Shown one piece after another: positions 7,318-32,046 of a stretch of 32,046 nt of DNA. Numbering within the stretch: the first letter of the stretch is position 1; each line of letters opens with the position of its first letter. Source of the DNA: Pedobacter sp. GTDB lineage: Bacteria; Bacteroidota; Bacteroidia; Sphingobacteriales; Sphingobacteriaceae. The notes under the pieces were generated by a model that worked only from the letters and a program-made list of their open reading frames with translations, ran no database searches and had not been told where the DNA came from. The stretch is from assembly GCA_014377775.1 (NCBI GenBank), contig JACMOW010000139.1, forward strand, positions 1 to 32,046, written 5' to 3'. The position numbers and the translations under genes are program-made.

Positions 7318-7412
7318 TAGTTGTTTAAAAATATCACCCTAAAAATTTAAGAAAACCCTCTTTTTTTAAATGTGCTAGCGTTAATTTGCAGTTATCTAAT
7401 ATCAATAACTGT

Positions 7413-8585: not shown

Positions 8586-8587
8586 GA

Positions 8588-11032: not shown

Positions 11033-11036
11033 CATC

Positions 11037-12209: not shown

Positions 12210-12227
12210 TTATAATCTCATTTTAAT

Positions 12228-12286
12228 ATTTTCCTCTTTTTTTTTAAGATTTTACCCCATGTTAAATTGGGGTGTGCCTAATTTAG
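12228..12286 (+). promoter_or_regulatory. Putative promoter/operator upstream of susC-1 (shared element copy 2)
   Basis: ATTTTCCTCTTTTTTTTTAAGATTTTACCCCAT (12228-12260), an 18-nt gap, then TAATTTAG (12279-12286). Also contains an inverted repeat ACCCCA-tgttaaat-TGGGGT (12254-12273). Confidence 0.5.
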
Positions 12287-12316
12287 ATGGTACTAACCAA
12301 AACCAAAGTATAAACG

Positions 12317-15300: not shown

Positions 15301-15547
15301 AGACGGTTCGTTCTTAAGGGTTAAAACAGTAAACTTAGGGTATAATTTTAACACTGCCATCACTAAAAAGCTCAAATTAAATGGGCTAAGAGTGTATGCA
15401 TCTGCACAAAATTTATTCACTATAACTGGATATCAAGGTTTAGACCCAGAGGTAAATACGTTCTCATCGGCCTTAACGCCTGGATTAGATTTTTCAGCTT
15501 ATCCACGAGCAAAAACCGTAACCTTTGGATTAGACATTACCTTATAA
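12317..15547 (+). CDS. SusC/RagA-family TonB-linked outer-membrane transporter (PUL 1)
   Basis: Carboxypeptidase-regulatory-like N-domain (GTVVDLKGQQLSGVSLKVKGGTTGTTTDANGKF); plug signature LTEIVVVGYGEVKRKDLTGSV; DVLKDASSAAIYGSRGANGVIIITTKRG; C-terminal beta-barrel. Confidence 0.97.
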   Translation: MNKLITLKLVKLLLISWLLFSFSIDLKAQGTGIKITGTVVDLKGQQLSGVSLKVKGGTTGTTTDANGKFSITVPNIRAIIVFSYIGFITSEELVGAKKILNVKLLEDTQALTEIVVVGYGEVKRKDLTGSVASVNISDLTKAPVTSFDDALAGRVAGVQVTSPDGMPGAAPSIIIRGGNSVTQDNSPLYVVDGFPIENFDNNSINPSDIESIDVLKDASSAAIYGSRGANGVIIITTKRGNVGAPKVTYKNFFGIQSNANKIDLMDPYEFVSYQLDVDSIPAAGSNSFVIYDIFSKTLNPTGKKSLADYRVEGIDWQDQIFRQAAMQSHEVAVRGGSKETKYGVTTSYLNQQGTLIASDFKRFQTRVTLDQVLNKRFKLGLNVNYSYIAAGGSQISGQNTTSDAFLISAWRYRPITTNLDDLDNLLDDAQDPSLVDFSATNYQWNPVLTRNNETRNRKTSLITANLNLDYAIANNLKLRLSGGINSRTFKNEEFNNSLSRLGSTLSTLGNGGPNGMITNTGSDNFLNENTLTYNKVFKRKHAFNAVLGSTIALNKVNVFGFGATLVPNENLGVNGLGQGIPQSVNTQRRQNTLASFLGRVNYSFNSKYLFTASFRADGSSKFVGDNIWGYFPSASAAWRLSEEKFLKGSKIISDAKLRASYGIIGNNRVSDYASYALLGTGGSNSYSGNGNFAIGSYPLTLSNPLLKWETTNEVDFGIDLGFFNQRMLLAADYYNKNTSDLLLSSDLPGSSGYATAFQNIGSVQNRGFEFSLTTINVDNKEFKWTTNLNISFNRNKVLSLTSGQNSLLTIARWATNNTIGLSPGYIAKLGQPIGMFYGLTSDGVYQYDDFDATTNTTTGLTTYLLKPSIPAASATRSLIQPGFWKFKDLNGDLIVDVKDLGTIGNPNPDFIGGFSNNFSYEGFDLNVFLQFSYGNEIMNVNRILMEGGGGVSATKAANMFTSYADRWTPTNPSNEFAAAGAGGRAPSFYPSRVVEDGSFLRVKTVNLGYNFNTAITKKLKLNGLRVYASAQNLFTITGYQGLDPEVNTFSSALTPGLDFSAYPRAKTVTFGLDITL

Positions 15548-15610
15548 AAGAATAGATATTAAATAAACTTCCGAATAGGGAGTAGATTTTTAAACATAAA
15601 AAATATAAAA

Positions 15611-17419
15611 ATGAAAAAGCAAATCATTGTATTATCATTAATTTTAAGCTTAGGGTTTATTGGATGTAAAAAATTCTTAACAGAATTACCACAGGATACC
15701 GCTTCGCCAGAAACTTTTTTTCAAAGAAAAGATCAATTAACATCGGCACTAATGTCTGTTTATTCCCCTTTAGGCAGTACAGATGAATCTACTTATTCTC
15801 GTTTTTTTCCGTTAGAGGCAGATGCAGCCACAGATGAGTTCAGTTCAAGAAGTGCGAGTGGGGTTGCGGCAAGCGCTTACAATGCAAGTTCATCTTATCA
15901 GAACTTTACCAGGTGCTGGAATAATCTTTATTTGGGAATTGAGAGGGCAAATTTTTTGTTAGAGAAATTAGAAACTTCAACTGCGCCTGAGGTAGATAAA
16001 AATCAGGTAAAAGGAGAAGCTTTATTTTTAAGAGCTTATTATCATTTTTTATTGGTTAGTTTTTGGGGAGATGTACCCTTAAAATTAACCACTACAAAGC
16101 GAGCATCTGATGTAAATAGAGCTAGGAATCCGGCAAAAGAAGTATATGACCAAATTATTAAGGACATGACAACAGCCGAGGGATTGGTGAAAAATGCAAG
16201 TGAATGGGGCGTAACCGTAACTGGAAGGGTTTCGAAAACAGCAGTTGAAGGGATTTTATCGAGAGTATGTTTACACGCAGCTGGCAGATTAAGGGATGAT
16301 AGCTATTTACCTGCAGCTGTATCTTGGGGTAAAAAGGTAGTAGCAAGCAATCAACACACGTTAAATCCAGATTATAAACAGATTTTCATTAACCATAGTC
16401 AGGACATAAACGATAATAAGGAATGCTTGTGGGAAGTAGAATTTATGAGAGATGCTACTGGTATTTACACAGAGTACGAGCGTTTTGGTTCTACCTATGG
16501 GCCACAAAACAACAATGAAAAAATAGGGTTTATGCAAGGTATTTATTACGCTACCGGAACGCTCTATAGTTCTTATGCCGATGGCGATTTAAGAAGAGAT
16601 TGGACAATCGCTAATTATCTTTACGTTAATACTGATGCTTCTAAAGGTAAAGCGTATACTAGTCCTGCTGTTATCTGGAGACGGCCAATGGGTAAATGGC
16701 GTAGGGAATATCAAAATGCTGCTGCCATCGGAATTAAGAATTTTGGTCCTACAAATTTTCCTTTATTAAGATATGCTGATGTGTTGTTAACGCTTGCAGA
16801 GGCTGATAATGAATTAAATGGGCCAACTGCAGAAAATATTGAATATGTAAATCAAGTAAGAAGAAGAGCTTATGGCGTGGCTTTTGTAGGTCGTAATATT
16901 AATAACTTTGTAATAACAGGCGGCGGTGCAGGTTATGCACTTACATCATTAGTTACTATTTCTGGAGGTGGGGCAACAAAAGATGCTAAGGCAGTTGTTT
17001 CTGCGGTTACTGCGGGAAGAATTACGGCCATCACGTTAATAGATGGTGGTGCTGGATATACAAGTGCCCCAACCATTACGATTTCTGGTGGAACAGGAGC
17101 TTTGGTAACGGCTAACGTAAGTAATTTGGGTGATTGCGAATTAGTTCCATCTAATTATGCTGCTAAAGATGTATTTCGTAACTTTTTGATGAAAGAGCGT
17201 AGTAGAGAGTTAGCTGGCGAAAGTCACCATAAATTAGATCTGTTTAGGTGGGGTAACTTCCTTTCAACCATGCAAGCAATGGTACCTATTATCAACACAA
17301 ATTTTAGTACGGTGGTAGTAGCTTACAGAAATGCCACTGCAAAGGATACGAGTTTTCCTATTCCAATACAGGAAATGTCGCTTAATTCGTTAATGATACA
17401 GACCGACGGTTGGAATTAG
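15611..17419 (+). CDS. SusD/RagB-family nutrient-binding lipoprotein (PUL 1) with an unusual Gly-rich insertion
   Basis: Lipobox LSLGFIGC; FLTELPQDTASPETFF; GEALFLRAYYHFLLVSFWGDVPL; FPLLRYADVLLTLAEADNELNGPT; C-terminal ERSRELAGESHHKLDLFRWG and FPIPIQEM. Confidence 0.95.
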   Translation: MKKQIIVLSLILSLGFIGCKKFLTELPQDTASPETFFQRKDQLTSALMSVYSPLGSTDESTYSRFFPLEADAATDEFSSRSASGVAASAYNASSSYQNFTRCWNNLYLGIERANFLLEKLETSTAPEVDKNQVKGEALFLRAYYHFLLVSFWGDVPLKLTTTKRASDVNRARNPAKEVYDQIIKDMTTAEGLVKNASEWGVTVTGRVSKTAVEGILSRVCLHAAGRLRDDSYLPAAVSWGKKVVASNQHTLNPDYKQIFINHSQDINDNKECLWEVEFMRDATGIYTEYERFGSTYGPQNNNEKIGFMQGIYYATGTLYSSYADGDLRRDWTIANYLYVNTDASKGKAYTSPAVIWRRPMGKWRREYQNAAAIGIKNFGPTNFPLLRYADVLLTLAEADNELNGPTAENIEYVNQVRRRAYGVAFVGRNINNFVITGGGAGYALTSLVTISGGGATKDAKAVVSAVTAGRITAITLIDGGAGYTSAPTITISGGTGALVTANVSNLGDCELVPSNYAAKDVFRNFLMKERSRELAGESHHKLDLFRWGNFLSTMQAMVPIINTNFSTVVVAYRNATAKDTSFPIPIQEMSLNSLMIQTDGWN

Positions 17420-18304: not shown

Positions 18305-19669
18305 ATGCCAAATATAAAAAATAATAACCGTTCTGGATCCGTCCAAGTAAACTCACTTAGTTCGAGAGAGACGTTAATTTCTATGTTTATTTTGGGTGGA
18401 TTGTTTTTTGTATTCGGTTTTATTACATGGATTAACGCCATTTTAATACCCTATTTTAAAATAGCTTGCGAGCTTAGCAACTTTCAATCTTATCTCGTAG
18501 CCTTTGCCTTCTATATCTCTTATTTCATCATGTCGCTCCCTTCTTCTTACCTGTTAAAATGGGTGGGATTTAAAAAAGGCATTATGTATGGCTTATGGGT
18601 GATGGCCATTGGGGTTTTTATATTTATACCTGCCGCACTAAGCAGAACCTACGAAATTTTTCTTTTAGGCTTATTCACTATAGGATCTGGTTTAGCCATA
18701 TTGCAAACTGCTGCAAATCCTTATATCACCATTTTAGGGCCTAGCGAAAAGGCAGCAAAGCGCATCAGCTTTATGGGTATATGCAACAAAGGAGCTGGTA
18801 TTTTAGCACCCCTAATATTTGCATCTGTAATATTTAAGGTTGCGGATAGCGAAATGTTAAAACAGCTTCCTTTAATGAGTGCGATAGAAAGAAGCGCAGC
18901 TTTAGACGAATTAATTAGACGCGTTATTCTTCCCTATAGTATTTTGGGTACTGTATTGGTTATACTAGGTGTATTGATTCGTTTTTCGCCACTACCCGAA
19001 ATCGATACCGAGCAAGAAGACGAAGAATTATCAACCTTAAACGCCGATAAAAAAAGCCTGTTCGATTTCCCTTATTTAATATTGGGTATTTTAGCCATAT
19101 TTTTTCATGTAGGTACACAAGTTATCGCCATCGATACCATAATTGCTTATGCAAATACTCTGGGTATGCCTATTATGGAAGCAAAAGTTTTTCCATCCTA
19201 TACCTTGTTTACTACCATTATAGGGTATAGCTTAGGGATTATCCTTATCCCAAAATACATTTCACAAATAAATGTACTCCGTATTTGTACACTTTTAGGA
19301 GTCGTTTTAACGCTTTTAATTATTTACACTCATAGTAATTATACAATTCTAGGTCATACTACAGATATCTCCATTTGGTTCATTGTATTGTTGGGCTTAG
19401 CGAACTCATTGGTTTGGGCTGGTATATGGCCAGTTGCTTTAAAAAATCTTGGTCGATTTACAAAAATAGGAGCCTCTACGCTAATTATGGCACTTTGTGG
19501 TAGCGCCATTTTCCCACTTATATACGGCTACTTAGCAGATTTATACAATGTAAGAACTGCCTATTGGATATTATTTCCTTGTTACCTCTATCTGGTGTTT
19601 TACGCTTTTTATGGGCACCTCATCAAACGATGGATACCAACCTTTAAAAAGAAAAATATACCAGCTTAA
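18305..19669 (+). CDS. MFS sugar transporter, FucP/GluP (glucose/galactose/fucose permease) type
   Basis: ISMFILGGLFFVFGFITWINAILIPYFKIACELSNFQSYLVAFAFYISYFIMSLPSSYLLKWVGFKKGIMYGLWVMAIG and LQTAANPYITILGP are FucP/GluP-like blocks; ~12 hydrophobic helices. Confidence 0.92.
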   Translation: MPNIKNNNRSGSVQVNSLSSRETLISMFILGGLFFVFGFITWINAILIPYFKIACELSNFQSYLVAFAFYISYFIMSLPSSYLLKWVGFKKGIMYGLWVMAIGVFIFIPAALSRTYEIFLLGLFTIGSGLAILQTAANPYITILGPSEKAAKRISFMGICNKGAGILAPLIFASVIFKVADSEMLKQLPLMSAIERSAALDELIRRVILPYSILGTVLVILGVLIRFSPLPEIDTEQEDEELSTLNADKKSLFDFPYLILGILAIFFHVGTQVIAIDTIIAYANTLGMPIMEAKVFPSYTLFTTIIGYSLGIILIPKYISQINVLRICTLLGVVLTLLIIYTHSNYTILGHTTDISIWFIVLLGLANSLVWAGIWPVALKNLGRFTKIGASTLIMALCGSAIFPLIYGYLADLYNVRTAYWILFPCYLYLVFYAFYGHLIKRWIPTFKKKNIPA

Positions 19670-19818: not shown

Positions 19819-22800
19819 ATGAAAAAACAATTATTTTTTAAGCTAAAGCATACCTTTTTATGTGCTTCTCTTATAATACTTTCTTCTAGCGTAAATGCAG
19901 CTATGGAGAATCTTGTTAAGGAAATTAATCCAACTAAAACCTTTTATGCTAAGGATATACTTGTTAAAGGTACAGTAAAGAACGACGCAGGCGAGGCATT
20001 GGCTGGTGCTACTGTAAATGTTAAGGGTTCCAATATCAGAGTGGCAACTAATGCAGAAGGCGAATTTCAGATAACAAGCCCTGAAGGTGCAATACTAGTT
20101 TTTACCTATCTAGGCTACCTTTCGCAAGATGTTAATATTGGTAATAAATCAGTAATCAATGTAACGATGCTGGTAGATGCCCAAAAGTTTCAAATGAACC
20201 AAGTGGTAATTGTGGGATATGGTACACAAAAACGTTCTGACATTACTGGCTCGGTGAGTTCTGTACCCAAAGAAAGGTTATCACAATTGCCAGTAACCAA
20301 TGTGCTTCATGCATTAGAAGGAGCAGTAGCCGGCTTAAAAATTACGCAAACATCTTCTGTTCCTGGAAGTTCTGCTGGGGTGCTGATTAGAGGTGTGAAC
20401 TCAATTAACGCAAATACTGCTCCGCTAACGGTAATTGATGGTGTGCCATTTAGCAATCTCGGAGGATCTATGAATGATATCAACCCTAACGACATCGAAT
20501 CAATAGAAATTTTAAAAGATGCATCGGCCGTTGCCGTATATGGCACCAGAGGATCAAGTGGGGTGATTTTAATTACCACAAAAAGAGGTAAAACCGGAGA
20601 GCCTACCATTAGATATAGTGCTTACGCCGGACCAGAGTATCAAAATAAAACATTAACGCCTTTAAATGCAGAAGAATATGTGAAAAAATATGTAGATTTT
20701 CTTGCACAAAGAGGTCAGGTGCCAACGGTTACACCTGTTCCAAATCAGTACGAAATTGAAAATTATATCGCTGGAAAGACAACAGATTGGATGAAAGAGA
20801 TTTCGCAACAGGGATCAATACAAGATCATAACCTTAGCATTTCTGGAGGTAGCGATAGATTAAAGTATTTTGTTTCTGGAGCCTATCAAAAACAACAAGG
20901 TGTGTTAAGGGGGTATCAGTATAACCGTGCCTCTTTTAGGTCTAACTTGGATGCTAAAGTAACCGATTGGTTAACTGCCGGAACTTCACTGTTTTTTGCA
21001 AATAACAATACAGATGGTGGTACCGTACGCTATACCGCTGCCATGCAAATGAGTCCTTATGGTAGAGCATACGAAGCAAATGGCAAATACACCATTTTCC
21101 CGATGTTCTCGGAAACAAACTTCAGAAACCCTCTGCTGGGTTTAAACTCTGATGTGCTAAATAGAGATAAAAACCTAAATGGAATATTTTATACTGAGGT
21201 TAAACCGAAATTTTTAAAAGGACTTAAGTACAGGATGAATGCCAATTATGCTTTCTTACCTTCACGTACCAATACCTATAATGGAATCGATGCAGGCGAT
21301 ACATTTGGTGGCTCTGCAGGGCTTAGTAACACTGAAACCGAAAGTTGGATTGTAGAAAACATACTTACTTATGATAAAAACTGGGGTGGTCATCATCTAG
21401 ATTTAACCGCTTTATACAGTGCGCAAGAAAAAAAATATAGAACCAATGGAACTACTGGTAGAACATTTATTAATGACGATTTATCATTCAATAACATCGG
21501 CGCTGCGGCTGTATTAACAGGTAACTCTTTTTACAGTAGAGAAGCATTGGTTTCTCAAATGGGTAGATTAAATTACGCCTACAAAAGTAAATACCTGTTT
21601 ACGGCAACAGCCAGACGTGATGGTTATTCTGCTTTCGGATCTGGAACCAATAAATATGGTCTTTTCCCATCGGTTGCTATTGGATGGAATATTTCGAGCG
21701 AAAATTTCCTGAAAAATATAAAGCAAATTGATAACATTAAGCTAAGAGCTTCTTATGGTACATCGGGCAACCAAGCAGTAGGCGTTTATCAAACAATTAC
21801 CACCCAAGGCGTTACAAAATACATCTATAACGGCATAACCGCTACGGGTTTAGTGTCGAGTTCGTTGCTAGCCAACGGAGTTTTGGGAAATGTTAACCTA
21901 AACTGGGAAAGCACCACAGGAACAAATTTAGCAGTAGATTTCTCCTTATTTAACAATAGAATTAGTGGTACGGTAGAAGCCTACCAAACAGAAACTAAGG
22001 ATGTATTGTTAAGTCGTAGGTTACCTAATATTACTGGTTACGCAAGCATTTTCGACAATTTGGGAAGTGTTAAAAATAGAGGTATTGAAGTTACTTTAAG
22101 CTCCATTAACATCAAGAAAAATGATTTTACATGGTCTAGTAATTTAAATTTTTCTGCCAATCGCAATAAAATTGCTTCACTTTATGGAGATAATAAAGAT
22201 GATATTGGTAACAAATGGTTTATTGGTAAACCATTATTTGCTATTTACGATTATCAATTAGCAGGAATATGGCAAGTAGGGGAAGATCCATCTACAGTAG
22301 ATCCTGGCGCAGTTTCGGGAAGCTTAAAATTTGTGGATGTAAACAACGACAAAAAAATTACCGAAGCAGATAAAGTTTATCAGGGAACCAGCTTGCCAAA
22401 ATGGACTGGAGGAATAACCAATACCTTCAGATATAAAACACTAAGTTTAAGTGTATTTCTACAAACTTCCCAAGGATCAAAAATCAATAATCCACAACTT
22501 AATCTGCAAAACTACGGCGGTCGTGTAAATATTCCTAAAGAAGTTTCATATTGGACTGCCGAGAACAAGAATAATACACAACCATCTTTAGTTTTTACTA
22601 ACCCTAGGCTTTACGCTTATCCAGTAAACCAAAACTATACACGTATTAAAGACATCACCATCAGTTACAACTTTACCGAAAAAGTACTCAGTAAACTTAA
22701 ATTGGGAAGTTTAACCGCTTTTGCGAGTGGACGAAATCTTTACACATTTACAGACTGGGTTGGTCTTGATCCAGAGTTAAGTGTAAATGGAAGTCAAGCC

Positions 22801-22884
22801 GGAACAGCCAATGCACCACTAAGTTATGGTATATATCCACTGGTATCTAGTTTCGTATTTGGATTAAATGTTACGCTGCGTTAA
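19819..22884 (+). CDS. SusC/RagA-family TonB-linked outer-membrane transporter (PUL 2)
   Basis: GTVKNDAGEALAGATVNVKGSN..TNAEGEF N-domain; VVIVGYGTQKRSDITGSVSSV; IEILKDASAVAVYGTRGSSGVILITTKRG; barrel C-terminus. Confidence 0.97.
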   Translation: MKKQLFFKLKHTFLCASLIILSSSVNAAMENLVKEINPTKTFYAKDILVKGTVKNDAGEALAGATVNVKGSNIRVATNAEGEFQITSPEGAILVFTYLGYLSQDVNIGNKSVINVTMLVDAQKFQMNQVVIVGYGTQKRSDITGSVSSVPKERLSQLPVTNVLHALEGAVAGLKITQTSSVPGSSAGVLIRGVNSINANTAPLTVIDGVPFSNLGGSMNDINPNDIESIEILKDASAVAVYGTRGSSGVILITTKRGKTGEPTIRYSAYAGPEYQNKTLTPLNAEEYVKKYVDFLAQRGQVPTVTPVPNQYEIENYIAGKTTDWMKEISQQGSIQDHNLSISGGSDRLKYFVSGAYQKQQGVLRGYQYNRASFRSNLDAKVTDWLTAGTSLFFANNNTDGGTVRYTAAMQMSPYGRAYEANGKYTIFPMFSETNFRNPLLGLNSDVLNRDKNLNGIFYTEVKPKFLKGLKYRMNANYAFLPSRTNTYNGIDAGDTFGGSAGLSNTETESWIVENILTYDKNWGGHHLDLTALYSAQEKKYRTNGTTGRTFINDDLSFNNIGAAAVLTGNSFYSREALVSQMGRLNYAYKSKYLFTATARRDGYSAFGSGTNKYGLFPSVAIGWNISSENFLKNIKQIDNIKLRASYGTSGNQAVGVYQTITTQGVTKYIYNGITATGLVSSSLLANGVLGNVNLNWESTTGTNLAVDFSLFNNRISGTVEAYQTETKDVLLSRRLPNITGYASIFDNLGSVKNRGIEVTLSSINIKKNDFTWSSNLNFSANRNKIASLYGDNKDDIGNKWFIGKPLFAIYDYQLAGIWQVGEDPSTVDPGAVSGSLKFVDVNNDKKITEADKVYQGTSLPKWTGGITNTFRYKTLSLSVFLQTSQGSKINNPQLNLQNYGGRVNIPKEVSYWTAENKNNTQPSLVFTNPRLYAYPVNQNYTRIKDITISYNFTEKVLSKLKLGSLTAFASGRNLYTFTDWVGLDPELSVNGSQAGTANAPLSYGIYPLVSSFVFGLNVTLR

Positions 22885-22899
22885 TAATTAAAAAAAATA

Positions 22900-22937
22900 A
22901 TGAAACCATCATGCGTACAAACTTATGATGGTTTCAT
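22900..22937 (+). promoter_or_regulatory. Perfect 13-bp inverted repeat (RNA hairpin) between susC-2 and susD-2
   Basis: ATGAAACCATCAT (22900-22912) - 12-nt loop gcgtacaaactt - ATGATGGTTTCAT (22925-22937). The arms are exact reverse complements. Confidence 0.8.
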
Positions 22938-22965
22938 GACCTTTAAAACTTTAAAACATAAAATA

Positions 22966-24546
22966 ATGAAAAAATTAATCTTTTTAGTACTTATTTTTCC
23001 AGTTCTAGCAGGCTTTCTTTCTTGTAAGAAAAGCTTCCTAGACGAAAAATCCGACTCGGCCTATTCACCCCTCAATACATTTAAAAATGTTGCTGGCTTG
23101 GATGCTGGGATTGCGGGACTGCAAGCGTCTGTTCGTGAGCAATACACCATGCAGGTAACACAATCCTTATTGGCCGTTTTCCAGGTTGGGACAGATGTTG
23201 CCTTAAACGGATTAGATGCAGGTGAAGCCGCACCTTTCGAAAATTATGCACTCCTTAATTCAGAAAGCCCTGCGGTGCTCAATTACTGGAATTGGTCTTA
23301 CAAAGTAATCAATAATGCAAACCTGATTATTAACGGTGCATCTGATAGCACTGCAGTTTTAACCAACGCCCAAAGAGCGGTTTATTTAGGTGAAGCCAAG
23401 TTTTATAGAGCATACGCATATAATTTTCTAGTTACTTTATGGGGACAGGTTCCGCTAATAGACCAACCATTAGATGCGCCAAAAACAGACTTTACAAGGG
23501 CAAGCCTAGAAAATTTAAATACCTTAATTAATAGCGATTTAGTATTTGCAACAACTAACCTTCCTAATATAGATGCCGTATCTAAACCAGGAAGAATAAG
23601 TAAAGAAGCAGCGCAACAATTGCTTGCCGAAGCTTACCTCAGGCAAGGTAAAAATGATCTAGCCGAAGCTCAATGCTTAAATATAATTAATAGCAAGAAG
23701 TTTTCTGTCATTAATGCAAGGTTTGGTGTTAAAAGAACCCTACCAGGGGATGCTTTTTCTGATATGTTTATTGTGGGCAATCAACGCCGAAGACAAGGAA
23801 ATACGGAGGCTATATGGGTTCAAGAAATGGAATACAATATTCCAGGAGGCTCTTCTAGCTTAGATCAACACAGAAGAGTTTGGGTGCCTTATTATTCGAA
23901 TGTTGCAGGAATGCTAGTAGCCGATTCATTGGGTGGCCGTGGTATCGGAAGAATTCGCTTAAGTTCTTGGGTAATAAAAGGCTTATACAAAGGTAATGAT
24001 ATGCGTAATTCAGTATATAACATCAAGCGCGATTTCTATTATAATGATCCAAAGAATGCAAAATTCGGACAAAAAGTAATTCCTCTCGCAGCAGACACGC
24101 TTTATAAAATCGTTCCTTTCACCACAAAATGGAATCATTATCTTGATGCAGATCCTACTGGAAATGGAGCCTATAAAGATTTAATGATGATGCGTTTAGG
24201 CGAAACTTATCTGTTACTTGCGGAAGCACAATTTAAACAAGCGAAGCTAACTGAAGCAGCCATCTCAGTAAATGTGTTAAGAACAAGAGCAAATGCAGCT
24301 CAAGTAACTATATCAGATATTTCGCTCGATTTCATTTTAGATGAGCGTGTAAGAGAATTAATCGGTGAAGAAAACCGAAGAATGACTTTAGCGCGCACTG
24401 GAACCCTTATAGATAGAGTTAAGAAGTTGAATTTTATTCAGAATGCAACCGTTCAACCTTTCCATCAACTCCTACCTATACCACAAAGTGAAATAGATTT
24501 GAATAAAGATGCCGTAATAACTCAAAACCCAGGTTATATAAGATAA
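22966..24546 (+). CDS. SusD/RagB-family nutrient-binding lipoprotein (PUL 2)
   Basis: Lipoprotein signal MKKLIFLVLIFPVLAGFLSC starts at the ATG at 22966; the 22-aa N-terminal extension in the ORF track (from 22900) is encoded by the hairpin and is probably not translated. SusD motifs: GEAKFYRAYAYNFLVTLWGQVPLI; LMMMRLGETYLLLAEAQFKQ; DERVRELIGEENRRMTLARTG; LPIPQSEIDLN. Confidence 0.94.
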   Translation: MKKLIFLVLIFPVLAGFLSCKKSFLDEKSDSAYSPLNTFKNVAGLDAGIAGLQASVREQYTMQVTQSLLAVFQVGTDVALNGLDAGEAAPFENYALLNSESPAVLNYWNWSYKVINNANLIINGASDSTAVLTNAQRAVYLGEAKFYRAYAYNFLVTLWGQVPLIDQPLDAPKTDFTRASLENLNTLINSDLVFATTNLPNIDAVSKPGRISKEAAQQLLAEAYLRQGKNDLAEAQCLNIINSKKFSVINARFGVKRTLPGDAFSDMFIVGNQRRRQGNTEAIWVQEMEYNIPGGSSSLDQHRRVWVPYYSNVAGMLVADSLGGRGIGRIRLSSWVIKGLYKGNDMRNSVYNIKRDFYYNDPKNAKFGQKVIPLAADTLYKIVPFTTKWNHYLDADPTGNGAYKDLMMMRLGETYLLLAEAQFKQAKLTEAAISVNVLRTRANAAQVTISDISLDFILDERVRELIGEENRRMTLARTGTLIDRVKKLNFIQNATVQPFHQLLPIPQSEIDLNKDAVITQNPGYIR

Positions 24547-24591: not shown

Positions 24592-25230
24592 ATGCGAATA
24601 CCGTTAATAGAATCTATTAGCCATAATACTGAGATTGAGAAAGTTTCTCTGTTACTAGATAAACTTTCTCAATTCTCCATTAGTTATCAACCTTGGTCGG
24701 CCTTTAAAAGCAATTGTCAAACCAGTTTTGTAATTGCACACGCTGGAGATGCAATATGTTTGAAGTTTTTCGTAAAGGAAGATGTAATCAAAGTAAGTAC
24801 CTATCAAACCAATGGAAGAGTGCATAAGGATAATTGTGTAGAGTTTTTTATCGCCTTTGGTGCACAGAAAAAATATTATAATATCGAGTTAAATTGTACT
24901 GGGATATGCTTAATAGGTTTTGGAGAAGGAAGATTGAATAGAGTTTTATTAAATGAAAAGCTCATTGCGAACGTTAAAACCCATATCAAAATTAATACTG
25001 CACCATTACATAGTACCACTAAATATGAGTGGGAAATTACAGCTATACTACCAATCGAAGTTTTTGAGGCATCCAACTTAATCAGTTTTCATCAGTTAAA
25101 CGGTTTTGGGAACTTTTTTAAATGTGGTGATGATTTACCACAGCCGCATTTTTACAGTTGGAATGAGATTGAAGCAAAAACCCCTGATTTTCATTTGCCC
25201 GAATTTTTTGGAGAGCTGGCGTTTGATTAA
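24592..25230 (+). CDS. Carbohydrate-binding family 9-like protein (CBM9-like), no evident signal peptide
   Basis: CLKFFVKEDVIKVSTYQTNGRVHKDNCVEFFIAF...YYNIELNCTGICLIGFGEGR...YEWEITAILPIEVF and HFYSWNEIEAKTPDFHLPEFFGELAF fit the CBM9-like/DOMON-type pattern of PUL-associated proteins. Confidence 0.7.
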   Translation: MRIPLIESISHNTEIEKVSLLLDKLSQFSISYQPWSAFKSNCQTSFVIAHAGDAICLKFFVKEDVIKVSTYQTNGRVHKDNCVEFFIAFGAQKKYYNIELNCTGICLIGFGEGRLNRVLLNEKLIANVKTHIKINTAPLHSTTKYEWEITAILPIEVFEASNLISFHQLNGFGNFFKCGDDLPQPHFYSWNEIEAKTPDFHLPEFFGELAFD

Positions 25231-25254
25231 GCTGTTTTAAAACAAAGAATTAAT

Positions 25255-26448
25255 ATGAATAAACTTAAAATAATTAACGGATATATTATCACACCTTATC
25301 GCATTATTAAAAATGGTACGCTATTAATAAATGATAATAAAATAGAATTAATAAGCGAGGTAGATGTTGAAGCTCCAGATTATTGTATTATTGATGCAAA
25401 AGAAAATTATGTTTCTCCAGGGTTCATAGATATTCATATTCATGGTGGTGGTGGGTACGATTTTATGGATGGTACGGAAGAAGCTTACCTTAAAATTGCA
25501 GAAATTCATGCCAAATATGGAACTACAGCAATGGCACCTACCACACTTACTTGTGCTAAAGCAGATTTGTTAAAAGCAATAGATCTTTACAAAAGTGCAA
25601 ATCTTAAAAATAGCAAAGGTGCACAATTTATTGGCTTACACCTAGAAGGTCCGTATTTTGCACTTAGCCAAAGCGGTGCGCAAGATCCTCGATATATCAG
25701 AAATCCTGATGTTGAAGAGTATAAAGAAGTAATTGCACATGGTGATGTAATTAAGCGATGGAGCGTTGCACCCGAATTACCAGGCGCCGTTGAAATGGGA
25801 AAATACCTAAAATCTCATGGCATTATTGCAGCCATTGCGCATACAGACGCCATTTATGAAGAAGTTGTAGTAGCTGTAGAAAATGGATATAGCCTCGCCA
25901 CCCACCTTTATTCGGCCATGTCTGGCGTAACCAGAAGAAATACCTATCGCTATGCTGGCGTAATTGAAAGTGCTTTTTTAATGGATCAAATGGACGTAGA
26001 GATTATAGCCGATGGCATTCATTTACCTGCACCATTGTTAAAATTAGTTTATAAAATTAAAGGACCAGATCGTATTGCGCTAATTACAGATGCCATGCGA
26101 GCTGCTGGCATGCCCGAAGGCGAAAGCATTCTTGGGAATAAAGAAACAGGATTAAAAGTGATTGTTGAAAATGGAGTAGCCATAATGGCCGATAGATCTT
26201 CTTTTGCAGGAAGTGTAGCTACTACAGATCGATTGGTTCGGACTATGGTTCAAATGGCCGATATCCCTTTGATAGAAGCTGTGAGAATGATGTCTAAAAC
26301 TCCAGCTACCATTATGGGGGTAGAAACTATTAAAGGAACACTAACCGTAGGTAAAGATGCTGATGTTTTAATTTTTGACGAAAACATAAATATAAAAATA
26401 ACCATGATAAATGGAAAAATAATATACACTTCACCAGATTTTGTGTAA
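25255..26448 (+). CDS. nagA: N-acetylglucosamine-6-phosphate deacetylase-like amidohydrolase
   Basis: SPGFIDIHIHGGGGYDFMDGT; GLHLEGPYFALSQSGAQDPRYI; AIAHTDAIYEE; LATHLYSAMSG; ALITDAMRAAGMPEGESILG; GVETIKGTLTVGKDADVLIFD. Confidence 0.88.
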   Translation: MNKLKIINGYIITPYRIIKNGTLLINDNKIELISEVDVEAPDYCIIDAKENYVSPGFIDIHIHGGGGYDFMDGTEEAYLKIAEIHAKYGTTAMAPTTLTCAKADLLKAIDLYKSANLKNSKGAQFIGLHLEGPYFALSQSGAQDPRYIRNPDVEEYKEVIAHGDVIKRWSVAPELPGAVEMGKYLKSHGIIAAIAHTDAIYEEVVVAVENGYSLATHLYSAMSGVTRRNTYRYAGVIESAFLMDQMDVEIIADGIHLPAPLLKLVYKIKGPDRIALITDAMRAAGMPEGESILGNKETGLKVIVENGVAIMADRSSFAGSVATTDRLVRTMVQMADIPLIEAVRMMSKTPATIMGVETIKGTLTVGKDADVLIFDENINIKITMINGKIIYTSPDFV

Positions 26449-26465
26449 TGAATAAAATAATTTAG

Positions 26466-27236
26466 ATGAGAGAATTTATAAAAGACAAATTAATAGTAAG
26501 GATTTTTGACAATAGAAATCTGATGGGGGAGGCAGTTGCCTATGCGGTAAGTGAGCGAGTAAACAAATTATTAAGTCAACAACCCTTCGTTAATATTATT
26601 TTTGGAGCAGCACCATCACAAAACGAATTTTTTGCAGCATTGCTTAAAAAAAACATTGATTGGTCTAGGTTAAATGCCTTTCACATGGACGAATATGTAA
26701 ACCTAGCTGCTGATGCTCCACAAGGATTTGGAAATTTCTTAAAAGAACATTTATTTGATTTAGCTCCTTTTAATACCCTAAATTATATTGATGGAAATGT
26801 GAACGATTATGAAGCAGAATGCTTAAGGTATTCGAAACTGTTAAAAGAATTCGAAACCGATATTGTATGTTTAGGTATTGGAGAAAACACACATTTAGCG
26901 TTTAATGATCCGCATGTAGCCAACGAGAATGACCCTTATTTTGTGAAATGTGTAGATTTAGATGAGACCTGCCGAACGCAACAAGTAAACGACGGATGCT
27001 TTAAACACATTGATGATGTACCCACCCACGCACTTACACTTACTTTACCTGCTTTGCTAAAAGCACCTTATGCTTTTTGTACAGTGCCAGCAGAAAAAAA
27101 GGCAAAAGCAGTATTTCATACGCTAAATGAAGAAATTAGTGATAACTTTCCTTCAACTTTATTAAGAAAACATAAAAATGCTGTGCTGTTTTTGGATGAT
27201 AAAAGCAGCGCACAAATCAAACCAAATATACCTTAA
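26466..27236 (+). CDS. Glucosamine-6-phosphate deaminase/isomerase-like protein (NagB-like)
   Basis: IIFGAAPSQNEFFAALLKKNIDWSRLNAFHMDEYVNL; DIVCLGIGENTHLAFNDPHVA; THALTLTLPALLKAPYAFCTVPAEKKAKAV. Confidence 0.85.
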   Translation: MREFIKDKLIVRIFDNRNLMGEAVAYAVSERVNKLLSQQPFVNIIFGAAPSQNEFFAALLKKNIDWSRLNAFHMDEYVNLAADAPQGFGNFLKEHLFDLAPFNTLNYIDGNVNDYEAECLRYSKLLKEFETDIVCLGIGENTHLAFNDPHVANENDPYFVKCVDLDETCRTQQVNDGCFKHIDDVPTHALTLTLPALLKAPYAFCTVPAEKKAKAVFHTLNEEISDNFPSTLLRKHKNAVLFLDDKSSAQIKPNIP

Positions 27237-27239
27237 GAA

Positions 27240-28055
27240 ATGAAATGTGAATTAACTACAGCGCAAATTCAGTTTTTTCAAACAAACGGATTTGTGGTAA
27301 TCGAAGATTTTCTCTCTGCTGAGGAATTAACGCAATGGCGTGAAGCAGTTACCGAAGCGGTAAAAGATAGAAATGGATTAAAAATGCCAGGAAAGGAAGC
27401 AAAAATAGGGATGGATGATGGTATTAATAAAGATTCAGAATATTTTTCAAAAGTTTTTGATCAATTGCTTAACCTTTGGCAAACCAACGATAAAGTGAAA
27501 GAGATTATGTTGGATGAAAGAATTGGCAAAATGGCGGCCCAACTTTCGGGCGCTAGTGGCATCAGAATCTGGCACGATCAGGCCTTGTTTAAACGCCCAT
27601 GGGCAAACCCAACTTCGTGGCATTTAGATACCCCTTTTTGGTCGTTTTCTGATCGAAAAGCACTTTCTATTTGGGTAGCGTTAGACGATGCAACCTTAGA
27701 AAACGGATGCTTATATTTTATTCCAGCTTCGTTTGAAGAAACCACCTACGAAAATAAAGGAATTGGAAAAAATATGGACGGCATTTTCGAAGCCTATCCT
27801 CAATTTGCACAAGTTGTATCGGTAGCAGCACCCATGAAAGCAGGAAGTTGCTCTTTTCATAATGGATTAACCATACATGGTGCTGGTCCAAATATGACTA
27901 GCGGACATAGGAGAGCGATGACCTGTGCATATATGCCAGATGGAAATATATTTAACGGAGAGCCAAATATTTTACCTGAAACGTATTTGAATACACTTAC
28001 AGTTGGCGACTTGCTGAATAATGAAGCGCAAAATCCATTGATTTATAAATCTTAA
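27240..28055 (+). CDS. Phytanoyl-CoA dioxygenase (PhyH)-family Fe(II)/2-oxoglutarate oxygenase
   Basis: FQTNGFVVIEDFLSAEELTQWREAV; metal motif TSWHLDTPFWSF (HxD); KAGSCSFHNGLTIHGAGPNMTSGHRRAMTCAYMP (distal His plus downstream Arg). Confidence 0.88.
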   Translation: MKCELTTAQIQFFQTNGFVVIEDFLSAEELTQWREAVTEAVKDRNGLKMPGKEAKIGMDDGINKDSEYFSKVFDQLLNLWQTNDKVKEIMLDERIGKMAAQLSGASGIRIWHDQALFKRPWANPTSWHLDTPFWSFSDRKALSIWVALDDATLENGCLYFIPASFEETTYENKGIGKNMDGIFEAYPQFAQVVSVAAPMKAGSCSFHNGLTIHGAGPNMTSGHRRAMTCAYMPDGNIFNGEPNILPETYLNTLTVGDLLNNEAQNPLIYKS

Positions 28056-28063
28056 ATTTAACA

Positions 28064-28885
28064 ATGAAATTTTTGTGTCCACGTTGGGGCTCTGAAACTA
28101 TTGCCTGGCCTATTTTTTTAAAGGAGGTTAAGGATGCAAATTATTCTGGCATTGAATGGTTTCCTTTTGGCGAATCTTGTAGTTATCATGAAGTACTCGA
28201 TTTATTAAACCAGTACGAGTTAGACTTCACCATTGTAATGGCTGTTATCGAACCTTACACCACTTTCGAGCGATATCTGCAAAAGCTAGAAACGGATTTG
28301 CATCAACTGATGGAAATTAGAAGTGAAACTAAAGCGCCATTATTTTTTAGTGCCCAAGTTGGAAGAGAGTTTTTTAACGAACAGCAAATTGAAAAATGCC
28401 TAGTGCTTTGCAATCAGATTGAAGATGAATATAAAACACCTATCCATCAAGAAACGCATCGTAATAAATGGCCGTATGCCGCACATGTAGTGGAGCAAGT
28501 ATTAAAGAAAAATCCAGATTTAAAGCTAACGCTTGATGTATCTCACTGGTTTTGTGTTTCAGAGAGTTATTTAGAAGATCAGCAAGATGCGGTAAACCTG
28601 GCTATAACACATGCCAAACATATTCATGCCAGAGTAGGCAGCACGCAAAGCTCGCAAGTTTGGGATCCGGCAAATGCCGAATACGAAGAAGCTTTAACTG
28701 CACACCTTCTAATTTGGGACAAATGGGTAGCGCAAATGAAAAAGAATAACGAACCCATTACCATTACGCCAGAATTTGGTCCGCCTCCTTATTTAATAAG
28801 CGGAAACCGAACACTATCTTTAAGGGATGAACAATGGAGAATAAATTTATGGATGAAAGATTTTTTAAAAAATAGATATACATGA
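28064..28885 (+). CDS. Sugar phosphate isomerase/epimerase-like TIM barrel (AP endonuclease family 2 fold)
   Basis: YSGIEWFPFGES; PIHQETHRNKWPY; LKLTLDVSHWFCVSE; HAKHIHARVGSTQSSQV; ITITPEFGPPPYL; presumptive metal ligands in these blocks. Confidence 0.8.
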   Translation: MKFLCPRWGSETIAWPIFLKEVKDANYSGIEWFPFGESCSYHEVLDLLNQYELDFTIVMAVIEPYTTFERYLQKLETDLHQLMEIRSETKAPLFFSAQVGREFFNEQQIEKCLVLCNQIEDEYKTPIHQETHRNKWPYAAHVVEQVLKKNPDLKLTLDVSHWFCVSESYLEDQQDAVNLAITHAKHIHARVGSTQSSQVWDPANAEYEEALTAHLLIWDKWVAQMKKNNEPITITPEFGPPPYLISGNRTLSLRDEQWRINLWMKDFLKNRYT

Positions 28886-31728
28886 AAAGAAGATCTTTCT
28901 TGCAAAAAACCACTATTTTATCGGCTGCCACTTTAGTAGCACTACACAATACTACTTTTGCCAACACTTTTATGCAGCTTGTTGAAGACGATTTTAAAAA
29001 TCCAGTGAGTAACTATCGCCCTTTTGTAAGATGGTGGTGGAATGGTAATAAAATAGAAAAATCTGAACTGGCCAGAGAACTTAAACTCTTAAAAGATGCT
29101 GGTATTGGCGGGGTAGAAATTAATCCAATCTCTTTTCCATCTAATACAGACGATATGGGCATCGAATCTGTAGAATGGTTAAGCGATGAATGGGTAGATC
29201 TTTTGAAATTTACGTTAACAGAAGCCAAAAAACTAGATCTAACTTGCGATCTTTTAGCAGGTACTGGATTTCCTTTTGGTGCTGCATTTTTAGAAGACGA
29301 CGAACGTGCACAGGTGGTTGTGGTAGCGGTAAAAAAACTAGAAGGTCCATTGAAAACTGAAATCTCGCTTTTCGATATTTTTAAGGAAGCAGATCCTGCC
29401 ACTTTAAGTCCGTATACAGGGCGCAAAATGGAAATTCTCGAACTAAATGTTGTTCCAGATCCTTTAATTAGCATGGATCAGGTAAAAAATATCACGAAGC
29501 AAGTTGTTAATGATGTGGTTAAAATAGATTTGCCAAAAGGGAAATTTGCCGTTTATGGTTTAGTAAAAATAGACGGTTTTATGCGGGTAATACAAGGTGC
29601 TCCGGGCGGTAGTGGACCAGTATTGAACCATTTTAATGAAAAAGCGGTAAAAAAATACCTGAATAAAATTACAGACACCATTCAGAACAGAATAGGGCCA
29701 TTAGCACCCTATATTCGCTCTTTTTTTGTAGATAGTTTAGAAATGGAAGGCGCCAATTGGACGAGCGATATGATGGTCGAGTTTAAAAAACGAAGGGGAT
29801 ATGATTTGTGTCCATATTTGCCATTTATCTTGTTCAGAACCGGTAGGATGGGGAATACGATCGACTTAAATTATGCGGTAAAAATTAGTCCTGATTTAGA
29901 AAAATCGCTAAATAGGATGCGTTACGATTTTGAGCTTACTAAAGCCGAGCTGTTTAGCGAACGGTTTTCGAAAACCTTTAGTGAATGGTGTACTAAAAAT
30001 AACATAAAATCGAGAGCACAGGCCTATGGTAGAGGGCATTTTCCGTTAGAAGGAAGTTTTGATATGGATATACCTGAAGGCGAAACATGGTTAAAATATG
30101 GTGTTGGAGAAGCAATTTCTGAAACCGATTTTACCAAATACCCTTGGCATTTAGGGCGTGGAAATACCATGATTAATAAATTTGTTTCGTCGGCAGCGCA
30201 TTTAAAAGATAAAAAATTAATCAGTTCAGAAGAATTAACCAATACCGACATGGTGTTTGCCGAAACCTTAGCGATTTTTAAAATTGCAGGCGATCAAAGT
30301 ACCATTTCTGGCATTACACACCCTGTTTTTCATGGCTTTAATTATTCGCCAAAAGCAGCTGCTTTCCCAGGTTGGATCACCTATGGTGGGTATTTTAACG
30401 AACAAAATACCATTTGGCCGCATTTTAAACACTATACCGATTATAGAGCCCGGCAATCTGCATTGTTGCAACAGGCTACTTTTTTTGCCGATATTGCCAT
30501 TATGGCGCCAACTGGCGATATGTGGGGCGATTTTGGTGCACAAATGGAACCTTTTCCTTCACGCGTTACGCCACCCTATCAAATGTTGGTTTGGGAATCG
30601 ATACACCAAAATGGAAATGCATGCGACTATATCTCAGAACAGGTAATCGCCGATGCCGAATTTAAAGAGGGTTCGATCTGTTATGGTTCGAGAAAGTACC
30701 ATACCCTTTTCTTAATAGAAGTTAAAAGTATCGAACCTCAAACCGCAAAGAAATTATATGAATTTGTGAGAGCTGGAGGGCGTATTTTCTGTATAGAAGC
30801 TTATCCGGAAAAATCTCTAGGCTGGCTAAACCATCAACAAAAAGATGCGGAAGTAAAAGAGTGGGTCGATAAATTAAAGCTTTATCCAAAGCAATTTATT
30901 TTCCTGTTTAAACCAGCATCTAATTTTAAAGAATGGTATAAAGCTATTCAAACCCAATATGCCATCACTCCTTATGTAAAAATTGCAAATCCAAATGCAT
31001 TTATCACGCAAGTAAGATATCAGACTAAAGACGCCGAAATTTTTATATTTAACAATGCCAGTGCCCATCACAGCATAGATTTAGCCACCCAATTTTTACC
31101 AGCCATCACAGCCAATAAACAAGCTTGGATTTGGGATGCAGTAAGCGGAGATAAATTTAAATTGGATTTGAAAAATGGTCAGTTCAAAACAAAACTCTAC
31201 CCGGCAGATTCTAAAATCATTGTTTTTAATGACGAGAAAAATGGACAAAACTGGCGCCCTATACCAGAAATAACAGCCAATGCAGTGAAGTTAAATCCGA
31301 AATGGAAAGCGGAGTTTAAACACATGAATGGAAGTATGAAAACGCAGGAACTACACGAACTACGTGATTTAAAAGACCTGCCAGATTTTACTCATTTTGC
31401 AGGTACAGTTTCCTATTCATCAACCTTAACATTATCAAACCCTAAAAGCCTTCAATATTTAGATTTAGGGAAAGTATTTGGCATAGCCGAACTGATTGTA
31501 AATGGTAAACATTTAGGCGCTACATGGTACGGTCGTAACGCTTTTGCAATCGAAAATGTGCTAAAAAAAGGTGTAAATCACATCGAAATTAAAGTAACCA
31601 CAGTAATGTTAAATTACATGAAATCTTTAACAGAAAATGTAACAGCACAGTACTGGTCTAATAATAGTAAAAGAAAAGAACAACCACTTCAATCGATGGG
31701 TATGGTTGGCCCAGTTAATTTATTTTAA
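28882..31728 (+). CDS. Large glycosyl hydrolase, GH106 (alpha-L-rhamnosidase)-like, exported (possible Tat signal)
   Basis: N-terminus MKRRSFLQKTTILSAATLVAL (RRxFL type); NYRPFVRWWWNGNKIEKSELARELKLLKDAGIGGVEINPI; FVDSLEMEGANWTSDMMVEFKKRRGYDL; C-terminal sandwich with LDLGKVFGIAELIVNGKHLGATWYGRNAFAI. Starts with a 4-bp ATGA overlap with the upstream gene. Confidence 0.75.
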   Translation: MKRRSFLQKTTILSAATLVALHNTTFANTFMQLVEDDFKNPVSNYRPFVRWWWNGNKIEKSELARELKLLKDAGIGGVEINPISFPSNTDDMGIESVEWLSDEWVDLLKFTLTEAKKLDLTCDLLAGTGFPFGAAFLEDDERAQVVVVAVKKLEGPLKTEISLFDIFKEADPATLSPYTGRKMEILELNVVPDPLISMDQVKNITKQVVNDVVKIDLPKGKFAVYGLVKIDGFMRVIQGAPGGSGPVLNHFNEKAVKKYLNKITDTIQNRIGPLAPYIRSFFVDSLEMEGANWTSDMMVEFKKRRGYDLCPYLPFILFRTGRMGNTIDLNYAVKISPDLEKSLNRMRYDFELTKAELFSERFSKTFSEWCTKNNIKSRAQAYGRGHFPLEGSFDMDIPEGETWLKYGVGEAISETDFTKYPWHLGRGNTMINKFVSSAAHLKDKKLISSEELTNTDMVFAETLAIFKIAGDQSTISGITHPVFHGFNYSPKAAAFPGWITYGGYFNEQNTIWPHFKHYTDYRARQSALLQQATFFADIAIMAPTGDMWGDFGAQMEPFPSRVTPPYQMLVWESIHQNGNACDYISEQVIADAEFKEGSICYGSRKYHTLFLIEVKSIEPQTAKKLYEFVRAGGRIFCIEAYPEKSLGWLNHQQKDAEVKEWVDKLKLYPKQFIFLFKPASNFKEWYKAIQTQYAITPYVKIANPNAFITQVRYQTKDAEIFIFNNASAHHSIDLATQFLPAITANKQAWIWDAVSGDKFKLDLKNGQFKTKLYPADSKIIVFNDEKNGQNWRPIPEITANAVKLNPKWKAEFKHMNGSMKTQELHELRDLKDLPDFTHFAGTVSYSSTLTLSNPKSLQYLDLGKVFGIAELIVNGKHLGATWYGRNAFAIENVLKKGVNHIEIKVTTVMLNYMKSLTENVTAQYWSNNSKRKEQPLQSMGMVGPVNLF

Positions 31729-31741
31729 TTAAAATGTAAAT

Positions 31742-32046
31742 ATGAAATTTCAAAAGAAAATAATTTTAATGCTGTTAATTTTGCTTCAATGCACAGCTGT
31801 TTTTGCAAAGGACTATAAAGCATCATTTTTTCATATCAAATCGGATGGCACTACCATGAATACCCGGTCTATACAGTTTGCTATAGATTATATTAACAAA
31901 AATGGTGGCGGTAGATTGGTTTTCTATGTTGGGCGGTATTTAACGGGCTCAATTCACTTAAAGTCTAACGTTACGATTCAGTTAGAAGAAGGTGCAGTGT
32001 TGTTGGGTTCTACTAATCCGTTCGATTATGATAGAATTGGGAATAC
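31742..32046 (+). CDS. GH28-like/polygalacturonase-family protein, secreted (3' truncated by window edge)
   Basis: Open to the window end: MKFQKKIILMLLILLQCTAVFAKDYKASFFHIKSDGTTMNTRSIQFAIDYINKNGGGRLVFYVGRYLTGSIHLKSNVTIQLEEGAVLLGSTNPFDYDRIGN, a GH28-type N-terminus. Absent from the ORF track because it has no stop in the window. Confidence 0.8.
   Translation, partial: MKFQKKIILMLLILLQCTAVFAKDYKASFFHIKSDGTTMNTRSIQFAIDYINKNGGGRLVFYVGRYLTGSIHLKSNVTIQLEEGAVLLGSTNPFDYDRIGN

Follow-up and report, generated by a model that had tools for sequence, protein, structure and literature searches.

A PhyH-family oxygenase and a TIM-barrel protein in a Pedobacter polysaccharide utilization locus are probably linked to rhamnose rather than amino-sugar catabolism

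A contig of Pedobacter sp. (JACMOW010000139.1, positions 1 to 32,046; hereafter the window, 32,046 nucleotides) carries, in one polysaccharide utilization locus (PUL), genes for a PhyH-family Fe(II)/2-oxoglutarate (2OG) oxygenase (27240..28055, + strand) and an AP_endonuc_2/xylose-isomerase-like TIM barrel, a predicted metal-dependent sugar isomerase/epimerase (hereafter TIM; 28064..28885, + strand), which follow genes of the NagA and NagB type. The original prediction for this stretch proposed that PhyH and TIM may act on a modified amino sugar before NagA and NagB do, a reading that is not supported, since the pair recurs with rhamnosidases and rhamnose-catabolic genes across Bacteroidota. 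The PUL probably combines two separable catabolic arms, of which the one containing PhyH and TIM appears to be linked to rhamnose and not to the amino sugar, and the most probable substrate of these two proteins is rhamnose in some unusual form. This reading is based on gene content, intact catalytic motifs, the separability of the arms, and linkage to rhamnose by neighborhood and genome content, from which we infer the substrate and the reaction. The component families are known, and the recurrent PhyH–TIM pair in rhamnose loci appears to be the new part: the literature searched, with most subscription journals outside it, yielded no relevant paper that connects PhyH-family (phytanoyl-CoA dioxygenase) proteins with rhamnose, rhamnosidases, GH106 or PULs, nor one on the pair, and in agreement with the original prediction no characterized pathway with exactly this gene set was found.

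Distribution of the PhyH–TIM pair

A scan of one genome per species, covering about 85,000 species, recovered 343 relatives of PhyH, and the best 80 loci, nearly all from Bacteroidota, were retrieved. Loci labeled Williamsia (Actinomycetota; L020) and Beijerinckiaceae (Pseudomonadota; L069) are of typical Bacteroidota structure and are probably misbinned contigs of metagenome-assembled genomes (MAGs). Even samples comprised 301 Sphingobacteriaceae genomes and 297 genomes across the whole phylum; a PhyH orthologue is present in 48 of the former and in two of the latter, one of which is that of the window. Merging of the family sample with the best-80 set gave 106 distinct PhyH loci, in which neighbors were counted within the stretch, up to 10 kb on each side. 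A rhamnosidase-type glycoside hydrolase (GH) is found in 79 of these loci, a TIM-family gene (including a variant) in 76, an AraC-family regulator in 54, GH28 in 37, and a whole or partial set of Rha catabolic genes in 16; the TIM gene lies directly downstream of PhyH on the same strand in 49. NagB lies directly upstream of PhyH in 10/106 loci, all from one Pedobacter clade, to which the PhyH/TIM/NagA/NagB quartet is confined. The original prediction had itself named a search for conservation of this quartet across Bacteroidota PULs as a check, and the outcome goes against it.

Outside that Pedobacter group, PhyH in the best 80 loci is not accompanied by the NagA/NagB pair. The arrangement SusC-SusD-PhyH-TIM-GH106-GH28 occurs in Niabella, Chitinophaga, Siphonobacter, Flavobacterium rhamnosiphilum and Sphingobacterium, the last of which has RhaD, RhaI and a RhaK-like kinase upstream of the PhyH set. 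Parapedobacter and others have a divergent AraC gene followed by PhyH and TIM, and in other loci PhyH is located beside GH78-like or 6-hairpin rhamnosidases. The complete order MFS-SusC-SusD-CBM9-NagA-NagB-PhyH-TIM-GH106-GH28, in which MFS denotes a major facilitator superfamily transporter, is restricted to Pedobacter, where it is kept with small losses in eight species (L008–L015; L011 lacks CBM9); in 8/8 of these loci the NagP-like MFS gene is retained upstream and the cluster runs on into a polysaccharide lyase gene of family PL8. Because the order is kept in eight species, the cluster is not a product of chance, and chance adjacency is ruled out by this conservation together with the control stretches described below. 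In the PhyH tree, the proteins from NagA/NagB-bearing loci form one group (support 82/28, which is weak, for all eleven; 99/97 for ten), the neighbor of which is from a Paludibacter MAG whose PhyH–TIM pair is accompanied by GH106 and a rhamnose mutarotase and not by NagA/NagB.

A second copy, comprising the 3′ end of NagA followed by NagB, PhyH, TIM and GH106, is present on a 4017-bp contig of the same assembly (L005), with identities of 82% (NagB), 87% (PhyH), 74% (TIM) and 77% (GH106). Its PhyH groups with that of P. arcticus, and the copy represents a paralogous PUL or else contamination from a related Pedobacter.

Separation of PhyH and TIM from NagA and NagB

The NagB type of the window is found in 100/301 Sphingobacteriaceae genomes. 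The best 30 NagB loci consist mostly of NagA-NagB, often with a NagP-like MFS gene, and include PhyH only in the Pedobacter PUL. Pedobacter duraquae possesses the same PUL as the window (identities: NagP-like MFS 86%, SusC 73%, SusD 75%, NagA 84%, NagB 75%, GH106 75%), and also keeps CBM9, GH28 and PL8, but contains neither PhyH nor TIM, with 31 bp between NagB and GH106. Because its GH106 is nested on well-supported branches of the GH106 tree inside the PhyH-bearing clade, the absence of PhyH and TIM represents a loss and not the ancestral state. The same species has PhyH-TIM-GH106-GH28 in another PUL, together with RhaI and a RhaK-like kinase.

Linkage to rhamnose

Rhamnosidase, TIM, NagA and NagB were matched in 0/40 random 20-kb stretches and in 0/40 SusD-centered stretches of the same genomes, although the GH reference proteins used came largely from PhyH loci, which favored detection there. 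GH92 was rejected as a specific partner of PhyH, being no commoner in PhyH loci (11/82) than in SusD-centered controls (8/40). Among the Sphingobacteriaceae genomes, RhaI is present in 47/48 with PhyH and in 170/253 without it (p = 9e-7, a value that is indicative only, the loci being phylogenetically related); the sole PhyH-containing genome without RhaI is 77% complete. Locus L023 is a complete rhamnose operon (PhyH-TIM-FAD oxidoreductase-MFS-RhaT-RhaD-RhaI-RhaK) in which RhaT and RhaD-ADH score above curated cutoffs and the last gene encodes a RhaK-like kinase. This operon, with its rhamnose-catabolic genes and no glycoside hydrolase, points to a role of the pair at the monosaccharide level. 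L-rhamnose mutarotase genes are found in L016 and L074.

Several observations weigh against this linkage. No rhamnose gene occurs within the stretch in 24/106 PhyH loci, and 30/106 have no TIM. The same NagB type is also enriched in PhyH-containing genomes (30/48 against 70/253), though it is rarely co-located with PhyH; because NagB and RhaI are both enriched, genome content alone cannot separate the two readings, whereas location does, and co-occurrence in genomes was accordingly set aside as proof in itself. No recurrent formaldehyde-handling gene was found beside PhyH in the 25 most frequent Pfam families among 65 unlabeled neighbors. A small group of related loci (L067, L071, L075 and L082) combines PhyH (with TIM in three) with GH127, which is aceric acid hydrolase-like, and GH95, which suggests fucose or sugars of rhamnogalacturonan II (RG-II). 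Finally, neighborhood is not function.

Homologues of UroD/MtaA/CmuA-type methyltransferases, possibly a hint of methyl chemistry, lie beside PhyH in the GH106-containing loci L016 (11697-13975) and L074 (12625-13728); occurring in 2/106 loci, they are too few for this hint to be retained. In locus L083 (10915-18750), PhyH is followed by genes for a 2-hydroxyacid dehydrogenase, an aldehyde dehydrogenase that exceeds the PRK10090 cutoff, a transporter, an SDR protein, another TIM and an HpcH/HpaI-type aldolase; the locus looks like a non-phosphorylative deoxyhexose pathway.

Predicted properties of PhyH and TIM

PhyH passes the PF05721 cutoff (117.5 bits against 22), and its iron triad H128-x-D130...H213 and 2OG-binding R224 are conserved in 75/75 aligned proteins. 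These residues mark it as an intact Fe(II)/2OG oxygenase, as the original prediction had read from its HxD...H motif. The structural model (predicted local distance difference test, pLDDT, 92) has SnoK and SnoN as the best match both by sequence profile and by fold. The sugar modified by SnoK and SnoN in nogalamycin is a deoxysugar. These enzymes act on C–H bonds in nogalamycin biosynthesis (PMC5321127), whereas PhyH, which is about 24% identical to SnoN, is located in a catabolic PUL.

TIM itself is under the Pfam threshold for AP_endonuc_2 (PF01261; E = 0.003, 17.7 bits against 31.1), so that the AP2-type fold assigned to it by the original prediction stands by its confident TIM-barrel model (pLDDT 95) and by its relatives, 48/52 of which match this family at E ≤ 0.1 (best 2.9e-10). 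The best fold matches are members of the D-tagatose 3-epimerase family (TM-score about 0.6; 9-18% identity). TIM has a conserved E-D-H-E set (E130, D158 and H188 invariant, E237 in 51/52), which may correspond to the metal/catalytic set of these epimerases; the motifs ETHR and DxSHW are invariant in the PhyH-linked TIM group. Signal peptides, as read from the sequence, are present in GH106 and GH28 and in neither PhyH nor TIM, which are thus predicted to be cytoplasmic.

Proposed model of two catabolic arms

In the HexNAc (N-acetylhexosamine) arm, the NagP-like MFS protein, NagA and the NagB-like enzyme would convert N-acetylhexosamine, once phosphorylated by a kinase whose gene lies elsewhere, to fructose-6-phosphate; the NagA/NagB cluster contains no kinase. 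The known NagP-NagA-NagB pathway of N-acetylglucosamine (GlcNAc) catabolism has comparable components, and its NagA/NagB pair recurs without PhyH. In the rhamnose-linked arm, periplasmic GH106 and GH28 would free rhamnose and galacturonate residues, cytoplasmic PhyH would oxidize a derivative of L-rhamnose, a 6-deoxyhexose, and TIM would isomerize or epimerize the product, which could then enter the RhaI/RhaK/RhaD route. The window lacks RhaI, RhaK and RhaD, and thus an L-rhamnose catabolic operon; a RhaI gene is present elsewhere in the same genome. The arms are likely to be linked by a single polysaccharide in which HexNAc and rhamnose both occur.

The best single guess for the chemistry of PhyH, made by analogy and held tentatively, is O-demethylation of O-methyl-L-rhamnose to formaldehyde and the free sugar. 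Porphyran-degrading Flavobacteriia provide a precedent in Bacteroidota catabolism, in which an oxygenase of a polysaccharide-degradation locus, a cytochrome P450 with redox partners, oxidatively strips the O-methyl group from 6-O-methyl-D-galactose (PMC10033563). The window, by contrast, offers a single 2OG enzyme for which demethylation is only proposed, and its scanned proteins include no Pfam match to a P450 or redox partner. The walls of bryophytes and charophytes contain 3-O-methyl-rhamnose (PMC8070800), and methyl-rhamnose is also present in fern and lycophyte RG-II (PMC3779834). A broader and equally speculative proposal is that a single-component 2OG oxygenase of the PhyH family and an AP2-type TIM form a widespread, apparently undescribed module of Bacteroidota. 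As the equivalent of the methyl-galactose P450 route, it would unlock 6-deoxyhexoses that carry O-methyl groups or other modifications (methyl-rhamnose, methyl-fucose) from pectin-like, moss and algal glycans, and Pedobacter would add to it the HexNAc arm and a second, independent PhyH–TIM set in the same PUL.

If the model is correct, aerobic Bacteroidota of soil would depend on oxidation for part of natural rhamnose, for example methylated rhamnose, which hydrolases release and which is not directly usable by central metabolism. PULs are mostly interpreted through their hydrolases and lyases, yet here a conserved 2OG oxygenase/isomerase pair tracks rhamnosidases through many Bacteroidota genera. 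The enzyme pair is small, the PUL of P. duraquae supplies a natural case of its loss, and the amino-sugar reading of the locus is corrected.

Alternative interpretations

One alternative is that a modified amino sugar has a substituent removed or rearranged through oxidation by PhyH and TIM before NagA and NagB act. It is suggested by the adjacency of NagB, PhyH and TIM, with gaps of 3 and 8 bp, an adjacency that recurs in the eight Pedobacter species and on the second contig of the same genome. PhyH-family enzymes that act on amino sugars exist (KanJ), which also counts for this possibility. However, PhyH is found without adjoining NagA/NagB in about 90% of its loci, NagA-NagB mostly occur without PhyH, and the P. 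duraquae PUL retains NagA/NagB in the absence of PhyH and TIM; such a pathway was rejected on these location data and is regarded as improbable.

Within the rhamnose-linked reading, PhyH may instead catalyze SnoN-like oxidation or epimerization at a ring C–H of L-rhamnose, L-fucose or a rare 6-deoxyhexose, with TIM epimerizing or isomerizing the resulting ketose or keto-sugar. The nearest folds, SnoN and SnoK, act on deoxysugar C–H bonds (PMC5321127), and TIM resembles ketose 3-epimerases and the 3-keto-glucoside 4-epimerase YcjR. Because ring oxidation explains the need for TIM more easily than demethylation does, demethylation is held no more firmly than stated above; the low identity to SnoN, the modest TM-scores of TIM to epimerases and the many PhyH loci without TIM nevertheless count against ring oxidation, which ranks next and is held slightly less firmly. 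Another, rather unlikely, explanation is that the pair acts on a different sugar of a pectin-like glycan, for example a uronic acid or a sugar of RG-II, and is associated with rhamnose only through the rhamnose content of that glycan. The frequency of GH28 near PhyH, the GH127/GH95 loci and P. duraquae, which lacks GH88 along with both PhyH–TIM sets of this PUL, agree with this explanation, whereas the glycoside hydrolase-free operon L023, and several loci with rhamnosidases of differing families (GH106, GH78, 6-hairpin) and no GH28 or GH88, do not.

Organization of the gene run

The six genes from CBM9 to GH106 were confirmed to the base, all on the + strand, with gaps of 24, 17, 3 and 8 bp, a 4-bp TIM/GH106 overlap and 13 bp to the GH28 open reading frame, so the tight packing behind SusCD and an MFS gene had been described correctly; the source assembly comprises 3.17 Mb in 339 contigs and is 88% complete. 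Co-transcription is suggested by the spacing only, and promoter and terminator matches in the run were at chance level in the scan. The adjoining SusC-like TonB-dependent transporter (19819..22884, +; Plug, CarbopepD_reg_2) and SusD-like surface glycan-binding lipoprotein (22900..24546, +; SusD_RagB, SusD-like_3), with glycan-active genes beside them, identify a Sus-type PUL. Forty-five bp behind SusD lies a CBM9_2-like protein (24592..25230, +; PF16011, 184 bits), whose directly read N-terminus has no evident signal peptide. The NagP/FucP-family MFS sugar transporter (18305..19669, +) scores 366 bits against a cutoff of 625 for NCBIfam NagP_SO3503 and 192 bits for TIGR00885 (fucP); it is assigned to the putative HexNAc arm and could also carry a deoxyhexose.

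The identities given by the original prediction to NagA and NagB hold in full for the former and at superfamily level for the latter. NagA, a predicted N-acetylglucosamine-6-phosphate deacetylase (25255..26448, +; Amidohydro_1), exceeds the TIGR00221 equivalog cutoff (301.8 against 225.65 bits), and its top PDB match is the GlcNAc-6-P deacetylase 2vhl. The NagB-like aminosugar-phosphate deaminase/isomerase (26466..27236, +) passes PF01182 (Glucosamine_iso; 52.5 bits against a gathering cutoff of 27) with NagB 2ri0 as top PDB match, but falls under every NagB equivalog cutoff (121.3 against 528 for NF001682; 111.9 against 236.9 for TIGR00502), and by these scores is a divergent NagB type.

The GH106-like alpha-L-rhamnosidase (28882..31728, +), with an exported-type N-terminus, passes PF17132 (187 bits against a gathering cutoff of 29) and the jelly-roll domain NF045579, and is below the cutoff of NF049897, the BT4145 equivalog (370.6 against 1300 bits). 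It is followed by the N-terminal part of a GH28 rhamnogalacturonidase/galacturonidase (31742..32046, +; partial NCBIfam matches to BT4155, BT4153 and BT4146), which is cut by the contig end and is full-length at the same place in relatives. The best NCBIfam matches are models of the rhamnogalacturonan enzymes of Bacteroides thetaiotaomicron (GH106 BT4145; GH28 BT4146, BT4153 and BT4155), but the scores are far under the equivalog cutoffs and the Pedobacter locus joins PhyH, TIM, NagA/NagB and PL8 to them. A separate PUL lies upstream in the window (3310-17419), with a hybrid two-component regulator, a PF05426 alginate-lyase-family protein, GH2, GH88, SusC and SusD.

Extension of the PUL beyond the contig end

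Beyond the end of the contig the PUL goes on to PL8 and GH88, which the original prediction had not listed. In the source genome PL8 is located on contig C10 (L006), which, read as the reverse complement, has the gene order found in the corresponding part of the PUL in four relatives: PL8, GH88, LacI′, PhyH2, MFS2, AraC, TIM2, a GH52/GH116-like protein and an SASA esterase. PhyH2 (C10 7467-8279) is about 24% identical to the first PhyH, and TIM2 (C10 4302-5141) is 37% identical to the first TIM and 42-45% to other PhyH-linked TIMs. By comparison with L245-L249, this second set (C10 4302-8279) lies at the far end of the same PUL.

In P. insulae only AraC and TIM2 are missing. P. duraquae keeps NagA/NagB and is without PhyH, TIM, PhyH2, MFS2, AraC, TIM2 and GH88. 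The joint absence of both PhyH–TIM sets in P. duraquae, a single case, suggests that both act on one and the same portion of the glycan, which would not be the HexNAc. The nearest solved relative of PL8 is chondroitinase AC, and PL8, GH88, the NagP-like transporter and NagA/NagB would fit a glycan with HexNAc and uronic acid as well. Contig C36 of the same genome (L007) encodes a third PhyH, which belongs to the PhyH2 type (54%), together with a HAD-like gene and an AraC regulator related to that of C10 (34%).

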